Shown here piece by piece: positions 24,436 to 38,014 of a stretch of DNA of 38,014 nucleotides (its first letter is position 1; every line of letters starts with the position of its first letter). The stretch spans positions 1-38,014 of the forward strand of contig CAMKBC010000005.1 in the NCBI GenBank assembly GCA_946410665.1, in the 5' to 3' direction. The position numbers and the translations under genes are program-made. Under the pieces are notes generated by a model. It was not told the DNA's origin and did not search any database. It saw only the letters and a list, made by a program, of their open reading frames with translations. The stretch is from an uncultured Clostridia bacterium (GTDB taxonomy: Bacteria; Bacillota; Clostridia; TANB77; CAG-508).

Positions 24436-26859
24436 ATGCTTAAAATATTGGATAAATTTTTAAATGCACTTAAAACAGATAGAAATACATTTTTCACTTA
24501 TGTTCTATCTTTATTAACTGTGTATTTTTTAGTAGATCGTTTAATTGAATTTGCATTTATTGTATTTACAGGCGTTGCATATTATTATTGGAGTCCAATA
24601 ATGTACACTATCGCCCTAGCTTGCTGTGTATTTACATTTGCCTTTGCAATGAAAGCAAAGTTTGTAAAAGTAGATCAAGATAAAGTTAAATGGTTTAATA
24701 GATTTGTAATTGAATTTTACATTTTAGTAATCTTAATGTTTACTGAAGGTATTAACAAATTGCTTTGGATGGGATTCATCTCTGTTCCAAACTTCACAGG
24801 TATCGTTCAAAACTTTGGATTCTTAATTAGTCCAGCATTTGGTTCATTAGCATTGATGCTTCCTCTACTTACTGGAGGTACAATCTTCAAGAAATTATTC
24901 TTAGATGTTAATGATACTAGAAAAGTTTTTGAAGGTATTTATGATTATAAAGGAATCGACTTAAGTTCTTCTCCAAAAGATGCCGGAAACTTCTCTAACG
25001 AATTGTTCCTTGGTATTGAAAAAGAATATGGAACTAAAGTTAAACTTGCTGAAATCAGAAGATATGAATCAACACTTGTAGTTGGTGTTTCTGGTGCAGG
25101 TAAAACAACATTAGTATTTGAACCTTGGATTGCTCAAGATTTATACAAGAAATATTTCTACAGAGAAACAGCTAAAAGTATGGCTAACGCAGCTTTACGT
25201 ACTGGAATTGCAACATTAAATGCTCCATATGATAATGACTATATTAATAACAATTTCTCATTAAATATGATTCTTCCAGTTGAATCTAAGGCTAAAGCAT
25301 ATTCAGCATACTTCAAGAAATTAATCATGAATCAATCTGGATCAGATTTCACATATAGAGACTTAGGTTTAACTTACATTGCTCCAGATGATGAAACAAT
25401 TGAGAAAATGAAAAAGGTTTGTGCTGCACATGGTATTGGATACTACTTATTTGATCCTAACAGTTCAGACTCTATCGGATTAAATCCATTTTCATTTACT
25501 TCTCCTCTACAATCAGCAACAGCTATATCTACAATCTTAGGTGGATTCTATGCTAGTGCTGCAGGAGGATTAAATTACAAAGAAAACTTAGCTAATCAAA
25601 TCATTGAAAACTTAGCTATATTATTAAAAGTTGTTTATCCTAAGTTAAACGCAGGTAAATTACCTAACTTAAATGATATGTATAAATTATTAAACAACTT
25701 TGATGTTGTTGAAAAAATGTGTAGAATTCTTGAAGAAGATGAAGTTCTTTCAAAAGAATATGAGAATCAAATTCAATACTTCAAAAAGAACTTCTACGAA
25801 AAGAGCAATGGTAAGGAAGAAATGAAGAAATTAGTTTCTATTCCTCTAGCTCAACTTGATACATTATTAAGATATCCAGGAATTAAACGTATTTTATGTA
25901 ATAGAGAAAACAATATTAACTTTGACAAAGCTATTGAAAATGGAGATGTTTGCTTAGTTTGTACAAGACGTGGTGATTTAGGAGAAACAGCTCATAAAGC
26001 ATTTGGTTTATTCTTCTTACTATTAATGCAATACTCTATTTTAAGAAGACCTGGTAACGAAAAATCACGTATCCCTCACTTCTTATATGTTGATGAATTC
26101 GCTGATTTCGTATGCCCTGCTACAGAGTTAATATTTACTACTTATAGAAAATATAGAATTGGTACAGTTATTTCTGTACAAAACTTATCTCAATTAAGAG
26201 GTAAGAGCCAATTAGTAAGTACAGGAACTGATGTTACTACTACTGGTGATTATGATAAAATTGGTGACACAATCTTAGCAAACTGTTCAAATAAACTTGT
26301 ATTTGGTGGCGGCTCTCCAGAAGATGCTGTTTACTGGGAAAAAGAAATTGGACAAGTTAAGAAATGGTGGATTACTGATAATGATTACGATAAAGCTAAA
26401 GATGCTTATGCTCCTAAAGCTAACGTAGCATATAGATGGGGTCCAAAACAATTTGCCGGAACAATTACTGGTGCTAAATTCAAGAGAGTTACTTACAAGC
26501 TTAAAGATTCTGGTGGTAAGATCGATAATGGTCAAGCAGACTTAGACTTTATGCCAGCTAAATACTTAGACAAGCAAAAAATTAAAACATACAATTTCAC
26601 AAGTTATTCAAATGGTATTGCAAACAATAAAGAAACAGATAAATACAATGACACAATGTACAATAAATTTGGAAACACTGCTCATAGAAGAACAGAAAAA
26701 GCAGTATTTAGTGGTGATAACTCTGATGGACCAATTCACACAGATCCAACAAACTTATCAATCAAGCCTGATGCAAATGATGCAATCTACACTCCAGGAC
26801 AACGTAGAAACAACAATAAGAAAGCATCTTCATCAAACAACAACGAATCAGAAGAATAA
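24436..26859 (+). CDS. VirD4/TraG-like type IV secretion coupling ATPase (membrane-anchored, orphan)
   Basis: N-terminal TM helices; Walker A GVSGAGKTTLVF; Walker B-like PHFLYVDEFADFV; GIGYYLFDPNSSDSIGLNPF, VISVQNLSQLRGKS, ILANCSNKLVFGGGSPEDAVYWEKEIG motifs characteristic of TraG/TraD-type ATPases. Confidence 0.82.
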   Translation: MLKILDKFLNALKTDRNTFFTYVLSLLTVYFLVDRLIEFAFIVFTGVAYYYWSPIMYTIALACCVFTFAFAMKAKFVKVDQDKVKWFNRFVIEFYILVILMFTEGINKLLWMGFISVPNFTGIVQNFGFLISPAFGSLALMLPLLTGGTIFKKLFLDVNDTRKVFEGIYDYKGIDLSSSPKDAGNFSNELFLGIEKEYGTKVKLAEIRRYESTLVVGVSGAGKTTLVFEPWIAQDLYKKYFYRETAKSMANAALRTGIATLNAPYDNDYINNNFSLNMILPVESKAKAYSAYFKKLIMNQSGSDFTYRDLGLTYIAPDDETIEKMKKVCAAHGIGYYLFDPNSSDSIGLNPFSFTSPLQSATAISTILGGFYASAAGGLNYKENLANQIIENLAILLKVVYPKLNAGKLPNLNDMYKLLNNFDVVEKMCRILEEDEVLSKEYENQIQYFKKNFYEKSNGKEEMKKLVSIPLAQLDTLLRYPGIKRILCNRENNINFDKAIENGDVCLVCTRRGDLGETAHKAFGLFFLLLMQYSILRRPGNEKSRIPHFLYVDEFADFVCPATELIFTTYRKYRIGTVISVQNLSQLRGKSQLVSTGTDVTTTGDYDKIGDTILANCSNKLVFGGGSPEDAVYWEKEIGQVKKWWITDNDYDKAKDAYAPKANVAYRWGPKQFAGTITGAKFKRVTYKLKDSGGKIDNGQADLDFMPAKYLDKQKIKTYNFTSYSNGIANNKETDKYNDTMYNKFGNTAHRRTEKAVFSGDNSDGPIHTDPTNLSIKPDANDAIYTPGQRRNNNKKASSSNNNESEE

Positions 26860-31172: not shown

Positions 31173-32102
31173 TTAAATGCAAATTACTGATAAGCAAATA
31201 ATCATAACAAATGCATCTCCTAAATATTCAACGCATTTTGCTAACTTTCTTGTTTTCTTTGCTACAAAGCAAACATTAATTGCAATCAACATTGCATATA
31301 TTACTGATAAAACAATCTTTGCAATGTCGTTACCTGTATTTAATTTGCTAGGTAATAGAATTCTAGAAACGAGTAGCAACAATTCTAAAATACTTATTAA
31401 TATTGTTGCTCTTGGAATTCCTAAAACAGCTGTGTATGTTTTTACACCCTTTTCTTCATCTTCTTTACATCTCATTTTTCTAGCAATTTCAATTATCCAA
31501 GAAACAAAGTATACCATTGCTAGTAATGGCCAGATGTTAGCAAATGTTAATCCTACAAAACTTGATAAGTATAAGATTAATAATGGTAACATGATTTCAT
31601 CAAGTAAAACTTCGATTAGGATGTGTTTATCTATGAATTTCTTTATAAAGAAACTCTTAGTCATTAATAAGAAGAATACCCATACAAGTGCTAAATACTT
31701 TAATCCTGCAATATTAAATATGCATGTTAAAGTAATTTGAATTCCTGCACATATGAATAACAAAACTCTTAATTCTTTTAATTTTATTAATCCTCTAGGT
31801 ACTGGTCTATATGGTCTATACTTAGCATCTTCTGCATAGTCTTTAAATTCATCTACAATTCTTGCCATCAAGAATTGCGCTATTGCAACTACAAACATTA
31901 CCACAAAAACACCAATATTAACTGTTTTATCAAGTAATGTGTTTAAGTTTTTGTTAAAGAAAAATGTAGCCCATGTAAGACAAAAAATATATACTGAAAA
32001 TACTGCTAATGGAAATCTTTCTTTTTGGTATGTGTTCCATCTTTGAAAGAAGTTATAATTAGCTTCTTTCTTTTTCTTCTCTTCTAATTCTTCGCTAGTC
32101 AT
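31173..32102 (-). CDS. UbiA family prenyltransferase
   Basis: Polytopic; first Asp-rich motif DEFKDYAEDAKYRPYRPVPRG, second motif CKEDEEKGVKTYTAVLG. Confidence 0.87.
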   Translation of the reverse strand: MTSEELEEKKKKEANYNFFQRWNTYQKERFPLAVFSVYIFCLTWATFFFNKNLNTLLDKTVNIGVFVVMFVVAIAQFLMARIVDEFKDYAEDAKYRPYRPVPRGLIKLKELRVLLFICAGIQITLTCIFNIAGLKYLALVWVFFLLMTKSFFIKKFIDKHILIEVLLDEIMLPLLILYLSSFVGLTFANIWPLLAMVYFVSWIIEIARKMRCKEDEEKGVKTYTAVLGIPRATILISILELLLLVSRILLPSKLNTGNDIAKIVLSVIYAMLIAINVCFVAKKTRKLAKCVEYLGDAFVMIICLSVICI

Positions 32103-32111
32103 CTTAACTCC

Positions 32112-33608
32112 TTAAATCATTTTCATTAATGTGTTGTAATCAACCTTTGTAGAATGTCTTTTATCAACCGGAATCTTTTTAACAAATTTAACTTCATCTA
32201 TTTTCTTAAAACGAATTGCATTTATTAAAACATCTATTTTTGCTTTTTCAAAAGCGCCTTCTTCTAAAACAAGAATTAATTTTTCATCTTTTTCAACTAC
32301 AGCAATCTTTCCTAGCTTAAATCTTGCATGTAGTGCCGCTTCAATATCGAAATATGGATTCTTAACTCTTCCTCTAAGCCATAATCTGCCTGTTTCATCT
32401 ATTATTCCTAAATCTCCAGTTCTATGATAGATTGTTCCATCTACTGCAAATTTATTTTCCTTGTCTCCATATCCTCCAACATAACCTTTTAAAACATTGT
32501 CTCCAGTAACTACGATTTCCCCAACATCCTCAGTTTGCATGTTAATAAATTCTTCTGTAGTTAATGGTCCTATTGTCTTCTCTTTAGAACTAATAATTTT
32601 GCAATCAGTTACTCCAACTATCTTTCCTGCAAGTATACCATTGCCTTTCATTGTCTTTTCTATATCTTCTTCATCTAAATTTGTTACATCTTGCTCTGCA
32701 ATTGGCTCAGCTTCTGTTGATCCATATAAAGTAACAATCTTGCTGTTTGGAAAAACTGTTTTTAATTCATTAATAAAATCAACAAATACAGCTCCTCCGC
32801 CTGTAAAAATCTTTTTTACATTACCTAGCACTATACTGTTTTCCTGGCAGTAATTAGTTATTACCTTTAATAAACCTGGTGCTGCCATGATTCTATTTAG
32901 TTTATTATCTTCAATTTGTTTTACTATTCTTTTAGCCTTTGAACTTCCTAAATCAGAGAAGTTTGCATTAGCTATAACTGTTGTAATCTGTGAACTTATA
33001 TTTGATAGTGTAAAGATTGGAACTGTCGAAAGTTCAACATCTTCACTTGCATAATCTAAACAATTCTCTAAAATATTTGCTTGTGTTAATAAGAATTCAT
33101 GGCTACGTGCAGCTATTTTAGGCTTGCCTGTTGTTCCACTTGTATATGTGATAATTGCATCTGATTTGCTTTCTACTTCTTCAATTGATAGTTCTCCATC
33201 AACCTTCTCTAACTTATCAATTACATTTGCATTTATCTTAATATCTAATTTTTTTAAATTTGAATTTATATTCGAATACAATAAATACTTTGTAATTCCA
33301 ATTAAACCATCAACATTTGCAAATTCATTTTTCTTCATGCCATTTTTAATAAATCCTGCGTCCATGAAACATGGAACAGCACCTATTGTCCATAAAGAAA
33401 TCAAAGTCACGTATAAGTTGATTGACATCGGAACAAGTACTAACACCTTACTTTCCTTCTTTATTCCTTTTGAAAGCAAGTATTTCTTAAATTCTTTGAC
33501 TTTATCATATAAATCCTTATAAGTTATTTGCTTGCCATCTTGCACCAAACAAATTTTATCAGGATTATTTTTATAGTTTTGAATTAATTTAAAAGCCAAA
33601 TTATTCAT
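32112..33608 (-). CDS. AMP-binding (ANL) acyl ligase, OleC/FadD-like
   Basis: IITYTSGTTGKPKIAARSH, TLYGSTEAEPIAEQD, YHRTGDLGIIDETGRLWLRGR, KKIPVDKRHSTKVDYNTL. Confidence 0.88.
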   Translation of the reverse strand: MNNLAFKLIQNYKNNPDKICLVQDGKQITYKDLYDKVKEFKKYLLSKGIKKESKVLVLVPMSINLYVTLISLWTIGAVPCFMDAGFIKNGMKKNEFANVDGLIGITKYLLYSNINSNLKKLDIKINANVIDKLEKVDGELSIEEVESKSDAIITYTSGTTGKPKIAARSHEFLLTQANILENCLDYASEDVELSTVPIFTLSNISSQITTVIANANFSDLGSSKAKRIVKQIEDNKLNRIMAAPGLLKVITNYCQENSIVLGNVKKIFTGGGAVFVDFINELKTVFPNSKIVTLYGSTEAEPIAEQDVTNLDEEDIEKTMKGNGILAGKIVGVTDCKIISSKEKTIGPLTTEEFINMQTEDVGEIVVTGDNVLKGYVGGYGDKENKFAVDGTIYHRTGDLGIIDETGRLWLRGRVKNPYFDIEAALHARFKLGKIAVVEKDEKLILVLEEGAFEKAKIDVLINAIRFKKIDEVKFVKKIPVDKRHSTKVDYNTLMKMI

Positions 33609-34526
33609 CTATAAATCCTTTCCAAATAAAACATATTCTCTCATAGTTTGAGTTCCATTACGTTCTGCTAATTTTTGTGAAGTATTATCTTTATACATAA
33701 ATGCATAAATCCAATCTTCAAATCCTTTTTCTAAGGCTTTCTTTGCGATTATTCTGTTCATTACATTTCCAATTGCCATATCTTCATATTCCGGTAAAAC
33801 AGCAACTGTCTTTAGAATTAAAGTACTTATCTTTCCTTTTGTTTGCATCTCATTGAAATCCGGAATTGCAAATAAGAACCCTATTTCTTTTCCTTCTTTT
33901 TCAGCAATCAAGATCAAATCATCATCTACCATTTCAATAAATGGTGTATACTGTGCGATAAAGTTATCTTCATCGATCGGTGTATAGAATGGATTTCTGC
34001 AAAAGCTTTGCACAGAAACATTGTATATCTTCTTTAACTCTTCTATAGCTTTAGTCTTTTCAAACTTTCTAATTACTATGTTTTCGTCAGATAATCTTTT
34101 TTCAATTTCATCTAAAATTTCATTATCAAAGTAATCTTTTACTTTTCCCTTAGTTGATGTGTATTCATCTATTTCTTTGAATCCTGCAGCCTCAAAAAGA
34201 GCATTATAGTCAGCAGGGCTAACCTTTTCCATAACAAATGGCGCATCTCCATTTGACCACTTTAAGCTTCTGTATTGTTTCCATGTGTTGCCGTTCATTG
34301 GAGCGACAATTTGTTTTACGCCTTTTTCTTTCAATATACGTTCGCATTCTTCCAAAAGCTTAGTTCCAGCCTCATTATCGCTTATTGTTAGTTCTCCAAT
34401 TGTTCCTATTCTTTGGCCATTTACTTCTGGTGTTCCTACATAGAAACACGTAGCCTCCGCTAAAACATTTTCATCTTCAACTAATTTAATTTCAACATTT
34501 TGTTTTTCTTCAATTTTAAATTCCAT
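33609..34526 (-). CDS. GNAT-like N-acetyltransferase
   Basis: Acetyltransferase-like layout with KTVAVLPEYEDMAIGNVMNRIIAKKALEKGFEDWIYAFMYKDNTSQKLAERNG. Confidence 0.72.
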   Translation of the reverse strand: MEFKIEEKQNVEIKLVEDENVLAEATCFYVGTPEVNGQRIGTIGELTISDNEAGTKLLEECERILKEKGVKQIVAPMNGNTWKQYRSLKWSNGDAPFVMEKVSPADYNALFEAAGFKEIDEYTSTKGKVKDYFDNEILDEIEKRLSDENIVIRKFEKTKAIEELKKIYNVSVQSFCRNPFYTPIDEDNFIAQYTPFIEMVDDDLILIAEKEGKEIGFLFAIPDFNEMQTKGKISTLILKTVAVLPEYEDMAIGNVMNRIIAKKALEKGFEDWIYAFMYKDNTSQKLAERNGTQTMREYVLFGKDL

Positions 34527-35880
34527 AAAATATAATTCCTGATTCTAAAAATTGTATTATTCCTAGTAATCCAACAAATATAGCAACGATCTTTAAATGT
34601 AAGTATCCGTTCTTTACTGAAATCTCTTCTACTTCCTCATTTCTCTTGCTATATGCTATTGCTAATACACTTCCTAATAAAGCTACAACCATGCAGATTA
34701 ATATCTTCCAATCAAGTACATAACTTAATGCAAATCTTTGAATTAATAATCCTGGTATAAATACGAATACTAATCCTTTTGTAAATGCTAGTAATCCAGA
34801 TTTAACACATGAACATCCACGCTGAAATTTGAATCTAACATAGCTGTTGATAGCTAAATGCATTGCATATGTTGTTACATAAGTCATGTATATTTGTTCT
34901 CTTTGACCTATGATCGAAACAATTAAACATATTGCCAAACCAATAATTACGTTTGTTTCTACTATTCTTACATCGTACTTGTTGTGTCTTTCTTTTGCAT
35001 TAGGTAATGGGAATGTCATGACTGTTAATAATAGTAGTAATGGTGGAATTAATGCGTACCACCAATATAAAACTATTGTTAAATATCCAACTACAATTGC
35101 TTCTGCAATTGCCATCTTACTGAACACTTTAACTTTGCTGATTATAAATACGATTAATATTAACGCAAAAACTATTAGCAAGTTAATTCTTAATTCCTCA
35201 GTTGTTAACGACATTAAATGTCTAACAAATGCAAATGCTGCAAGTGGTATCAATAAGTTGTCACTTCCATTACTTGAAATCATTTCAACTAAAGCAATAA
35301 TAAATCCAACTATTAATGAAATGTGTAAAACGCTTTCTCTTGCTACTTCTGTAAATAATAACAATGGTACTAATGTTGCCATGAATGCTACGCAGAAGAA
35401 TGCAAAACTTCCTTCTAGTGATTTTTTGTCTTCTGTTGCTTCTGCTAATTGTTTCTTTCCATATATCTTTCCAATTAAAGCGGCTGTGCTATCTGCAAAT
35501 GTTAGAATTAGAATTGGAATACTATATAAAACTTTATCGCCTTTTGATAAGTAGAACACTAGCAATACAGCAATAATATAAAAGAACTCCCCTAGTGATT
35601 TTCTCTTAACTCCATATAGTACTGTTCCAAATGGTGTTTTATCTTTTAACTTTCTTATAATGTACAAGAAAACAAATGCTATAGCAGCTAAAACTACTGC
35701 AGACCACACATTTTTAAATAGATATGGCAATGCTAACATTGATAATCCCATCGCCATATGAAAACCTTTTCTTCTTGTTTCAGGTTTTAATTTCAATATC
35801 TTTTCTAGTACTGTAATAACTAACATGCAAGCTACTAGAATTAGTGAAATTATCCCTATTCCCTGCCACTCAATTATCAT
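34516..35880 (-). CDS. Phytol/dolichol kinase-like (CTP-dependent prenol kinase / CDP-archaeol-type) integral membrane protein
   Basis: TRRKGFHMAMGLSMLALPYLF, LTFADSTAALIGKIYGKKQL...KKSLEGSFAFF motifs; extra C-terminal membrane half. Confidence 0.8.
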   Translation of the reverse strand: MIIEWQGIGIISLILVACMLVITVLEKILKLKPETRRKGFHMAMGLSMLALPYLFKNVWSAVVLAAIAFVFLYIIRKLKDKTPFGTVLYGVKRKSLGEFFYIIAVLLVFYLSKGDKVLYSIPILILTFADSTAALIGKIYGKKQLAEATEDKKSLEGSFAFFCVAFMATLVPLLLFTEVARESVLHISLIVGFIIALVEMISSNGSDNLLIPLAAFAFVRHLMSLTTEELRINLLIVFALILIVFIISKVKVFSKMAIAEAIVVGYLTIVLYWWYALIPPLLLLLTVMTFPLPNAKERHNKYDVRIVETNVIIGLAICLIVSIIGQREQIYMTYVTTYAMHLAINSYVRFKFQRGCSCVKSGLLAFTKGLVFVFIPGLLIQRFALSYVLDWKILICMVVALLGSVLAIAYSKRNEEVEEISVKNGYLHLKIVAIFVGLLGIIQFLESGIIFYGI

Positions 35881-36989
35881 TTAACTTCCTCCACAATAAA
35901 TTTGCTATAGAAGAATGCTTTATCCTCAGCTAATAATTGTTTTGATAATTCTTCTTTATATTCTATTTTATCTATAGTTCTTGATGCTTGTTTATCTGAA
36001 AGCATATTCCAGTATGCTATTCTCGAACCCTTTGGTGCTTTAGTTAAAATTACATTAACTATTTGGCACATATCTTCTTCACTCATGTATTCGAAAATAT
36101 CACTCAAGTTACATTTATCTATTTTCTTAATATCATTTCTATTTATAAATGTTTCTACTGTTTCTTTCAAAACAACCAATTTATCTAGTCTTGATTTAAT
36201 TGTTTCAAAGTTCTCTTTTCTATAAGCAACTGGTAATGCATTGTCATATCTGCAATTGATGATGTATTGTAGGTACGAGTTTTCTGATGTGTCTAGCTCA
36301 GTAATTGCATATTTTGTTCTTTCTAATATGTGCTCTGCAACGTTTACATTAACGTATCTAAAGAATGCTTTATCTCTTCCTAGTTTGCCCATAACTTTTC
36401 TTGAGAAGAACATTTTAAACAATACTCTCCATCTTCTGTTGTTCCAAACTTTATCGTAAAACTCGTATCTCTCTTCTTTACTCTTCTTTTGAAGTAATCT
36501 ATCTCTAGTTTTTCTACTATGAATTAATGGCAATACTTTGTTTCCAAAAATGTGAAAGTAGTTTTCAAACTTACCACAGTGAATTATGCCTCTTTTGATA
36601 TAGTCTCTATGGCTTTCAAAATATTCTCTAGCTTTTTTAGGAATCTTTCCTTTAATCTTTTCAAAGATTTCATTTCTATCTTCACAATCAGACACGCCAA
36701 TAAATTGCATACATTCTTCATATTCTAAATACTTGTATGCAGCTATTTTCAATTGAACACAAAAGATTTGCTCTTCATTTAAATCGATTGCATATACTTT
36801 ATTTGGATTGCTAAGTAATAAACTAAATGCATTTTCTCCTGCTGAAGCAATACTTAAAACATCATCAGTCTCTTTAATATCTAGAGCTTTGATCAATATC
36901 TCAGCATCTTCCCAAACTTGTGCATAACGTATCAAATTAAATTCAGCATAATCTTCAACTTCACTTTTTATCATTTTGTTTTTTGCCAT
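35877..36989 (-). CDS. DUF3419 / BtaA-like S-adenosylmethionine 3-amino-3-carboxypropyl transferase
   Basis: RYAQVWEDAEILIKALDIKETDDVLSIASAGENAFSLLLSNPNKVYAIDLNEEQIFCVQLKIAA matches the DUF3419/BtaA N-terminal signature; long central region and GSRIAYWNML near the C-terminus. Confidence 0.85.
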   Translation of the reverse strand: MAKNKMIKSEVEDYAEFNLIRYAQVWEDAEILIKALDIKETDDVLSIASAGENAFSLLLSNPNKVYAIDLNEEQIFCVQLKIAAYKYLEYEECMQFIGVSDCEDRNEIFEKIKGKIPKKAREYFESHRDYIKRGIIHCGKFENYFHIFGNKVLPLIHSRKTRDRLLQKKSKEERYEFYDKVWNNRRWRVLFKMFFSRKVMGKLGRDKAFFRYVNVNVAEHILERTKYAITELDTSENSYLQYIINCRYDNALPVAYRKENFETIKSRLDKLVVLKETVETFINRNDIKKIDKCNLSDIFEYMSEEDMCQIVNVILTKAPKGSRIAYWNMLSDKQASRTIDKIEYKEELSKQLLAEDKAFFYSKFIVEEVK

Positions 36990-37036: not shown

Positions 37037-37045
37037 ATTATACCA
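37037..37045 (-). promoter_or_regulatory. Candidate extended -10 promoter of the lipid-type operon
   Basis: Minus strand TGGTATAAT about 48 bp upstream of the first gene of the operon (start 36989); no good -35 seen. Confidence 0.5.
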
Positions 37046-37102: not shown

Positions 37103-37125
37103 AAAAAAGCCGGACTAAGTCCGAC
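37103..37125 (-). terminator. Intrinsic terminator of the right-edge gene
   Basis: Minus strand GTCGGAC-tta-GTCCGGC followed by TTTTTT. Confidence 0.85.
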
Positions 37126-37136
37126 TTTTAATAATG

Positions 37137-38014
37137 CTAACCTAAAAATTTAGCACTTACGTTATTAATTTTAAATTGAGTACCATTGCTTACAAATTCA
37201 TATAATGATTTGTCTAGTGTTTCCTCATTTTGATCTAAATCAGTTGTATAATAATACTTCATTGCAGGTAATAAAGCTTTATTAACATATAACGCTTTAA
37301 ATACTTCAGCCATATGCTTTTGATCTTCGCAAACAAATACTAATTGAGGAACTGATCTAAATCCTCCATCTCCTGGAGCAAATGCTTCATAGAAGTCTTT
37401 CCATAAAAGCATTCTTTCTAGTAATTTTTCTTCCCAGCCTTGGTTTCTTCTAACTATTTCATAAGCTATTGAAACTTCTGCTTTTCCTACTGTGAAATCA
37501 ATTGCTGTGATTGGCTTAAATGTTTTTCCAATTCTCTTAGCTGTTAATTGTGGTTTTAAATGATATGCTTTGAATGTTTTAACCTTTCTCATATAAGCTA
37601 TGATTAATTGGTTTCCAGCTAATTTCTTCTTCATCATTTCAACTGGCTTTGCATTGTCTGATGGTTGCCATTTACATTCAATTTCTCTTGAATTTAATAG
37701 GTATTTACCCATCTTTTCCATGCAATATACTCTATAAACACCATTTCCATCTGCTGATGTGAAATAATATCTAGTAATAATCTTATTCTTTAATAATTGT
37801 TCTAATTTCTTATTAAGTTTATCTTGATCCTTAACGTCATATTTGTAGTATTCTAATAATTGAAAAATTTGTCTTGATGTTAAGAATTCAAATTCATTGA
37901 TTAACTCAAGAATTTTAAAATGCAATTCATTGATGTGTCCTATGTTGATTTTTTGAAGTATTTGATTCATTGAAACATATCCATCTTTTCCATCAAATAC
38001 TTTTATTTCACCTT
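37137..38014 (-). CDS. Replication-relaxation-like winged-helix protein (probably truncated by right window edge)
   Basis: N-terminal wHTH-like FKILELINEFEFLTSRQIFQLLEYYKYD, later YEIVRRNQGWEEKLLERMLLWKDFY...PQLVFVCEDQKHMAEVFKAL. The frame stays open upstream of the track's ATG at 37970 (GEIKVFDGKDGYVSMNQ) to the window edge. Confidence 0.6.
   Translation of the reverse strand, partial: GEIKVFDGKDGYVSMNQILQKINIGHINELHFKILELINEFEFLTSRQIFQLLEYYKYDVKDQDKLNKKLEQLLKNKIITRYYFTSADGNGVYRVYCMEKMGKYLLNSREIECKWQPSDNAKPVEMMKKKLAGNQLIIAYMRKVKTFKAYHLKPQLTAKRIGKTFKPITAIDFTVGKAEVSIAYEIVRRNQGWEEKLLERMLLWKDFYEAFAPGDGGFRSVPQLVFVCEDQKHMAEVFKALYVNKALLPAMKYYYTTDLDQNEETLDKSLYEFVSNGTQFKINNVSAKFLG

Follow-up and report, generated by a model that had tools for sequence, protein, structure and literature searches.

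A BtaA-like DUF3419 gene in a conserved six-gene cluster, with a probable role in making a membrane lipid

A BtaA-like gene and its operon in a Clostridia contig

BtaA is the enzyme that places the homoserine head on betaine lipids, and the methylation is done by BtaB. We analysed a BtaA-like gene in a 38,014-nucleotide stretch of DNA (the window) from an uncultured bacterium. The sequence-only reading of this DNA had described a BtaA-type (DUF3419) enzyme in a putative Firmicute, with a GNAT in its operon and no visible BtaB partner, and we agree on each of these points; the host belongs to the Clostridia. The open reading frame is intact and starts with an ATG preceded by AGAGGA, and both motifs quoted in that reading are present. 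PF11899 (DUF3419) covers residues 15–366 of the 370-residue product (E = 9.9e-66), which is full-length membership in the family. Because the score of 222.9 bits far exceeds the cut-off of 28.2, a chance match is excluded. The AF2 model of the protein has a pLDDT of 92.5, and its best matches in Foldseek were SAM methyltransferases, none of them at E ≤ 1e-3.

The gene is the first of six co-directional genes, running from 36989 down to 26880, whose neighbors overlap or sit at most 36 bp apart (Table 1). The overlap between the DUF3419 gene and the next gene is 4 bp. The sequence-only reading was right to include the GNAT in the operon, which extends further than it described. A terminator-like hairpin closes the upstream gene (37970–37137), so the operon begins after it, and the extended -10-like sequence TGGTATAAT might be the operon's promoter.

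Table 1. Coordinates of the operon genes and of the upstream elements, with the basis of each assignment
Feature	Coordinates	Strand	Basis
DUF3419 protein, BtaA-like SAM:3-amino-3-carboxypropyl transferase type, 370 aa; first operon gene	35877..36989	-	PF11899
Membrane protein (CTPtr), 454 aa; N-half CTP-dependent lipid-kinase-like (VTE5/VTE6/dolichol kinase/CdsA superfamily)	34516..35880	-	hhalign, weak Pfam
GNAT-like acyltransferase, 305 aa	33609..34526	-	PF00583, E 2.5e-6 on C-half
AMP-forming acyl ligase, OleC-like	32112..33608	-	PF00501, E 7e-42
UbiA-superfamily membrane transferase, motif DExKDxxxD	31173..32102	-	PF01040, E 2.5e-15
PPDK_N + PEP-utiliser phosphotransferase (PEP-synthase/PigC/rifampin-phosphotransferase type) fused to AMP-ligase + PP-binding (carrier) domain, 1418 aa	26880..31136	-	
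Intrinsic-terminator-like hairpin + T-run, end of upstream gene	37103..37129	-	direct sequence reading
Extended -10-like TGGTATAAT, candidate operon promoter	37037..37045	-	direct sequence reading; consensus match only

The operon is flanked by a TraG/VirD4-like gene (24436–26859, + strand) and a Replic_Relax-like gene (37137–37970, - strand). These two are the only conjugative-type neighbors, and G+C is flat over the window. A mobile-element origin of the operon is possible.

The 454-residue membrane protein had no match in a Pfam scan, and its relatives had weak matches below the cut-offs, to DUF92 (13 of 48) or to CTP_transf_1 (2 of 48). In hhalign, it paired with a DUF92 protein from a cyanobacterium (E = 1.6e-5), with the alignment falling on the D-xx-A...YG...S-EG motif. 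Its AF2 model (pLDDT 92.7) matched the CDP-DAG synthetase 4q2g in Foldseek with a probability of 0.93 and a non-significant E of 0.2, and searching the PDB by sequence with the family found nothing. We also considered a fusion of two kinases, VTE5 and VTE6, and rejected it: the C-half aligned unconvincingly to the cyanobacterial DUF92 protein, so we limit the kinase-like label to the N-half.

The GNAT is apparently a tandem protein. The nearest NCBIfam model to the AMP-ligase is PRK09274 (267 bits, below the cut-off of 478), followed by olefin beta-lactone synthetase (OleC). The UbiA protein is a member by PF01040 and has the first of the superfamily's two acidic, Mg-diphosphate-binding motifs in the altered form DExKDxxxD, whose residues D84, E85, K87, D88, and D92 are invariant in 11 aligned relatives; E205, R208, K209, and E216 of the second region are invariant as well. 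The 1418-residue fusion matches PF01326, PF00391, PF00501, and PF00550. Its nearest PDB entries are 5fbs and 5hv1, and it resembles PigC and RedH. The same fusion of PPDK-type, AMP-ligase, and carrier domains is found at locus L047, and H817 of the phospho-histidine motif is retained across the PPDK-type family. The expected catalytic residues are retained in the PPDK-type, UbiA, and AMP-ligase proteins, and also in the HMG-CoA reductase that is discussed below.

DUF3419 relatives and the absence of BtaB

A scan of genome contigs gave 543 confirmed relatives of the DUF3419 protein, and we retained the best 80 of these. These 80 span about 19 phyla (over 15), as judged from record titles and tree taxonomy. 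Many are from metagenome bins, where misbinning is possible, and several are from isolates. One locus is on a plasmid of Roseinatronobacter. Locus L062, titled Tannerella sp., has a Bacillota-like version of the cluster, which probably reflects misbinning of the contig or a transfer.

For comparison with BtaA, we used 22 DUF3419 proteins (327–395 bits) from 299 sampled proteobacterial genomes. As the BtaB query for tblastn, we used the methyltransferase that adjoins one of these; it is named BtaB from its position and class, and its NCBIfam matches include no BtaB model. A homolog of this BtaB adjoins all 22 of the proteobacterial BtaAs, versus none of 85 window-type DUF3419 loci. The window itself has no BtaB either, and the rest of the genome (86.5% complete) gave no match at E ≤ 1e-3, so a BtaB encoded elsewhere, which the sequence-only reading had named as a possible objection, was not found. 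At the same threshold, there was no match in seven other carriers (G010, G197, G403, G168, and three more). Some other genomes, mostly larger, had weak general methyltransferase matches.

In a tree of 111 rows, the window protein and 86 relatives are separated by a long branch from the 22 BtaB-linked proteins. The split has a support of 68 and long-branch warnings, so we base the subfamily on the tree, the gap in bit scores (213–255 for window-type proteins versus 327–395), and the gene neighborhoods together. When we compared 85 relatives with the 22 BtaA-type proteins, 22 positions were fixed alike, and these include WED (26–28), S49, G51, N53, D69, N237, Y239, and D297. Another 31 positions were fixed differently, which fits a changed acceptor site. 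By these sequence comparisons, the window protein belongs to a subfamily that is separate from BtaA. The earlier description as BtaA without a partner was correct about the missing BtaB; the protein is not plain BtaA, but a member of a separate subfamily in a conserved cluster of six to seven genes. Clustering with a DUF3419 subfamily of different function had also been foreseen as an objection; the separate subfamily comes close to this, though its function may or may not differ from that of BtaA. We know of no member of it that has been assayed.

Two other kinds of DUF3419 protein turned up. One, a third type on the Rhizobium plasmid pMK-2 (L119, 4010–5083), has a long branch in the tree and adjoins genes for KAS III, CoF-synthetase, and an oxidoreductase. 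The other, a divergent protein (L036), is with PPDK-type, GNAT-like, and APH-like kinase genes and two AMP-ligases, and without UbiA.

Conserved neighborhoods and a sister cluster

The window's six genes encode DUF3419, the CTPtr membrane protein, GNAT, the OleC-like AMP-ligase, UbiA with DExKDxxxD, and the PPDK-type phosphotransferase. Of the 37 relative loci for which 19 kb or more of sequence was available, 33 contain the whole set. The order is permuted between lineages, and there are three main orders: DUF3419-CTPtr-GNAT-ligase-UbiA-PPDK in the window and related Clostridia, UbiA-PPDK-DUF3419-CTPtr-GNAT-ligase, and GNAT-ligase-UbiA-PPDK-DUF3419-CTPtr. Because these genes stay together in shuffled order over about 19 phyla, they very likely have one common job. 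GNAT is found at 66 of the best 80 loci. At three loci from cyanobacteria, no AMP-ligase is adjacent, and one of the three lacks any partner. HMG-CoA reductase is added at 38 loci and occurs in many lineages; of 15 carrier genomes, mostly from Bacillota, 14 lack it, which rules it out as an obligatory component. No open paper that we searched describes the cluster.

The distribution of the cluster is sporadic. In the window's genus, the operon is present in 2 of 31 genomes. Among draws of 391 Clostridia genomes, DUF3419 was above the cut-off in five, and the DExKD-type UbiA (258 bits or higher) was in four, all of them within those five; the remaining genome, G168, carries a divergent variant that lacks UbiA.

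We doubt that the protein is a functional BtaA that converts ordinary diacylglycerol to diacylglyceryl-homoserine, with methylation either absent or carried out by an unrelated enzyme, and with the rest of the operon doing something separate. The full-length PF11899 match and the 22 shared positions are as expected for such an enzyme, but the subfamily is separate, with its 31 differently fixed positions, and genes that act independently would not be expected to keep the same partners over so many phyla.

Six other Clostridia genomes (L170–L175) encode a weaker UbiA (107–127 bits) in a related cluster. This cluster includes a CarS-like protein, two PPDK-type proteins, a CDP-alcohol phosphatidyltransferase (Pss-like), a phosphatidylserine decarboxylase (Psd-like), and the UbiA (PRK13592). 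GNAT is in five of the six stretches and the AMP-ligase was seen in two; there was no CTP-kinase-like protein and no DUF3419 in these stretches, some of which stop at a contig edge. It is apparently a second head-group version of the cluster, and on gene content it points to the exchange of head groups on a lipid. That CarS-, Pss-, and Psd-type genes take the place of DUF3419 is our main reason for considering DUF3419 to be a head-group module. Our inference is a pathway for a lipid whose head group can be exchanged, in which DUF3419 would provide an unmethylated homoserine head.

An operon product that is a secreted N-acyl homoserine-like signal or antibiotic, instead of a structural lipid, seems to us improbable. 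The sporadic distribution and the plasmid location in Roseinatronobacter would suit a small molecule, as would the phosphotransferase, with its fused adenylation and carrier domains and its resemblance to PigC and RedH. However, two integral membrane enzymes of lipid type belong to the core of the cluster, the sister cluster has phosphatidylserine synthase- and decarboxylase-like genes, the neighborhoods share no regulator, and an ABC-transporter gene is only occasional (14 loci).

Proposed pathway and comparison with known systems

We propose that the DUF3419 gene probably contributes to the synthesis of a membrane lipid of undescribed structure. That the cluster makes an unusual membrane amphiphile, with DUF3419 as the head-group enzyme of a conserved and sporadically distributed operon, we consider an evenly balanced proposition. 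In such a pathway, the CTP-kinase-like protein and the PPDK-type phosphotransferase would activate a lipid alcohol, and UbiA would build the hydrophobic core from the activated chain. DUF3419 would move the 3-amino-3-carboxypropyl group of SAM onto a free hydroxyl, so that the lipid acquires a homoserine head through an ether bond. Where BtaB would methylate, the AMP-ligase and GNAT would instead provide an acyl group and join it to the lipid, possibly at the homoserine amine; N-acylation of the head by GNAT is a possibility. The order of these reactions is also a proposal. One point against the scheme is that DUF3419 would face competition from a kinase that uses the same hydroxyl.

The sequence-only reading had suggested a homoserine-type lipid without trimethylation. 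We keep this as the best reading, with one change: because the protein is from a separate subfamily within a conserved cluster, the acceptor is probably a lipid made by the cluster, and not plain diacylglycerol. We found no trans-prenyl diphosphate synthase (PF00348) in either of the operon-bearing genomes of the genus (G000 and G010, 86% and 91% complete), so UbiA may use something other than a standard prenyl diphosphate as its chain; alternatively, the synthase may be missing because these genomes are incomplete.

An isoprenoid ether lipid of archaeal type with a homoserine cap is very improbable: DGGGP synthase (6m31) is the nearest match to the UbiA profile (E = 3e-5), HMG-CoA reductase is at many loci, and the sister cluster has a CDP-archaeol-synthase-like gene, but no GGGP synthase (PF01884) scored over the cut-off in any of 15 genomes, which led us to reject the archaeal ether lipid pathway, no trans-prenyl synthase was seen in G000 or G010, and nearly all Bacillota members lack HMG-CoA reductase.

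If the product of the cluster is a homoserine-capped lipid, then gut Clostridia, cyanobacteria, sulfate reducers, and soil bacteria have a membrane lipid that falls outside the targets of standard lipidomics. More tentatively, and with rather more doubt than confidence, we suggest a widespread and undescribed class of bacterial membrane lipids with a shared core (UbiA, the PPDK-type phosphotransferase, and GNAT with the acyl ligase), capped by homoserine in some bacteria and by phosphoethanolamine in others. Cultured carriers exist, among them Desulfobulbus rhabdoformis DSM 8777, Methylomonas sp. SURF-1, and Phormidium tenue FACHB-886, so the cluster is directly testable. DUF3419 alone has served as a marker for DGTS in algae (PMC6642084); as there is at least one large bacterial subfamily of DUF3419 without BtaB, such use calls for caution.

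Of the described systems, the BtaAB (DGTS) pathway of the Rhodobacter/Sinorhizobium type has a BtaA that shares the DUF3419 family, WED, S-x-G-x-N, and the acidic D69 with the window protein. The window protein differs in belonging to a separate subfamily, about 24% identical to the Rhizobiaceae members, with many positions fixed otherwise, and its locus has other conserved neighbors in place of BtaB. The sister cluster likewise brings related UbiA, PPDK-type, and GNAT genes together (and the AMP-ligase in 2/6), and it differs in its phospholipid head-group genes and second PPDK-type protein, as well as in lacking DUF3419 and the CTP-kinase-like protein. The N-half of the 454-residue protein aligns at the signature motif of the CTP-dependent lipid kinases VTE5/VTE6 and dolichol kinase; the protein falls below the Pfam cut-offs and has an extra C-terminal membrane half. 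Finally, rifampin phosphotransferase, PEP synthase, and PigC share the ATP-grasp domain and the swivelling phospho-histidine domain, with the histidine kept, while the window's 1418-residue protein has these fused to AMP-ligase and carrier domains.
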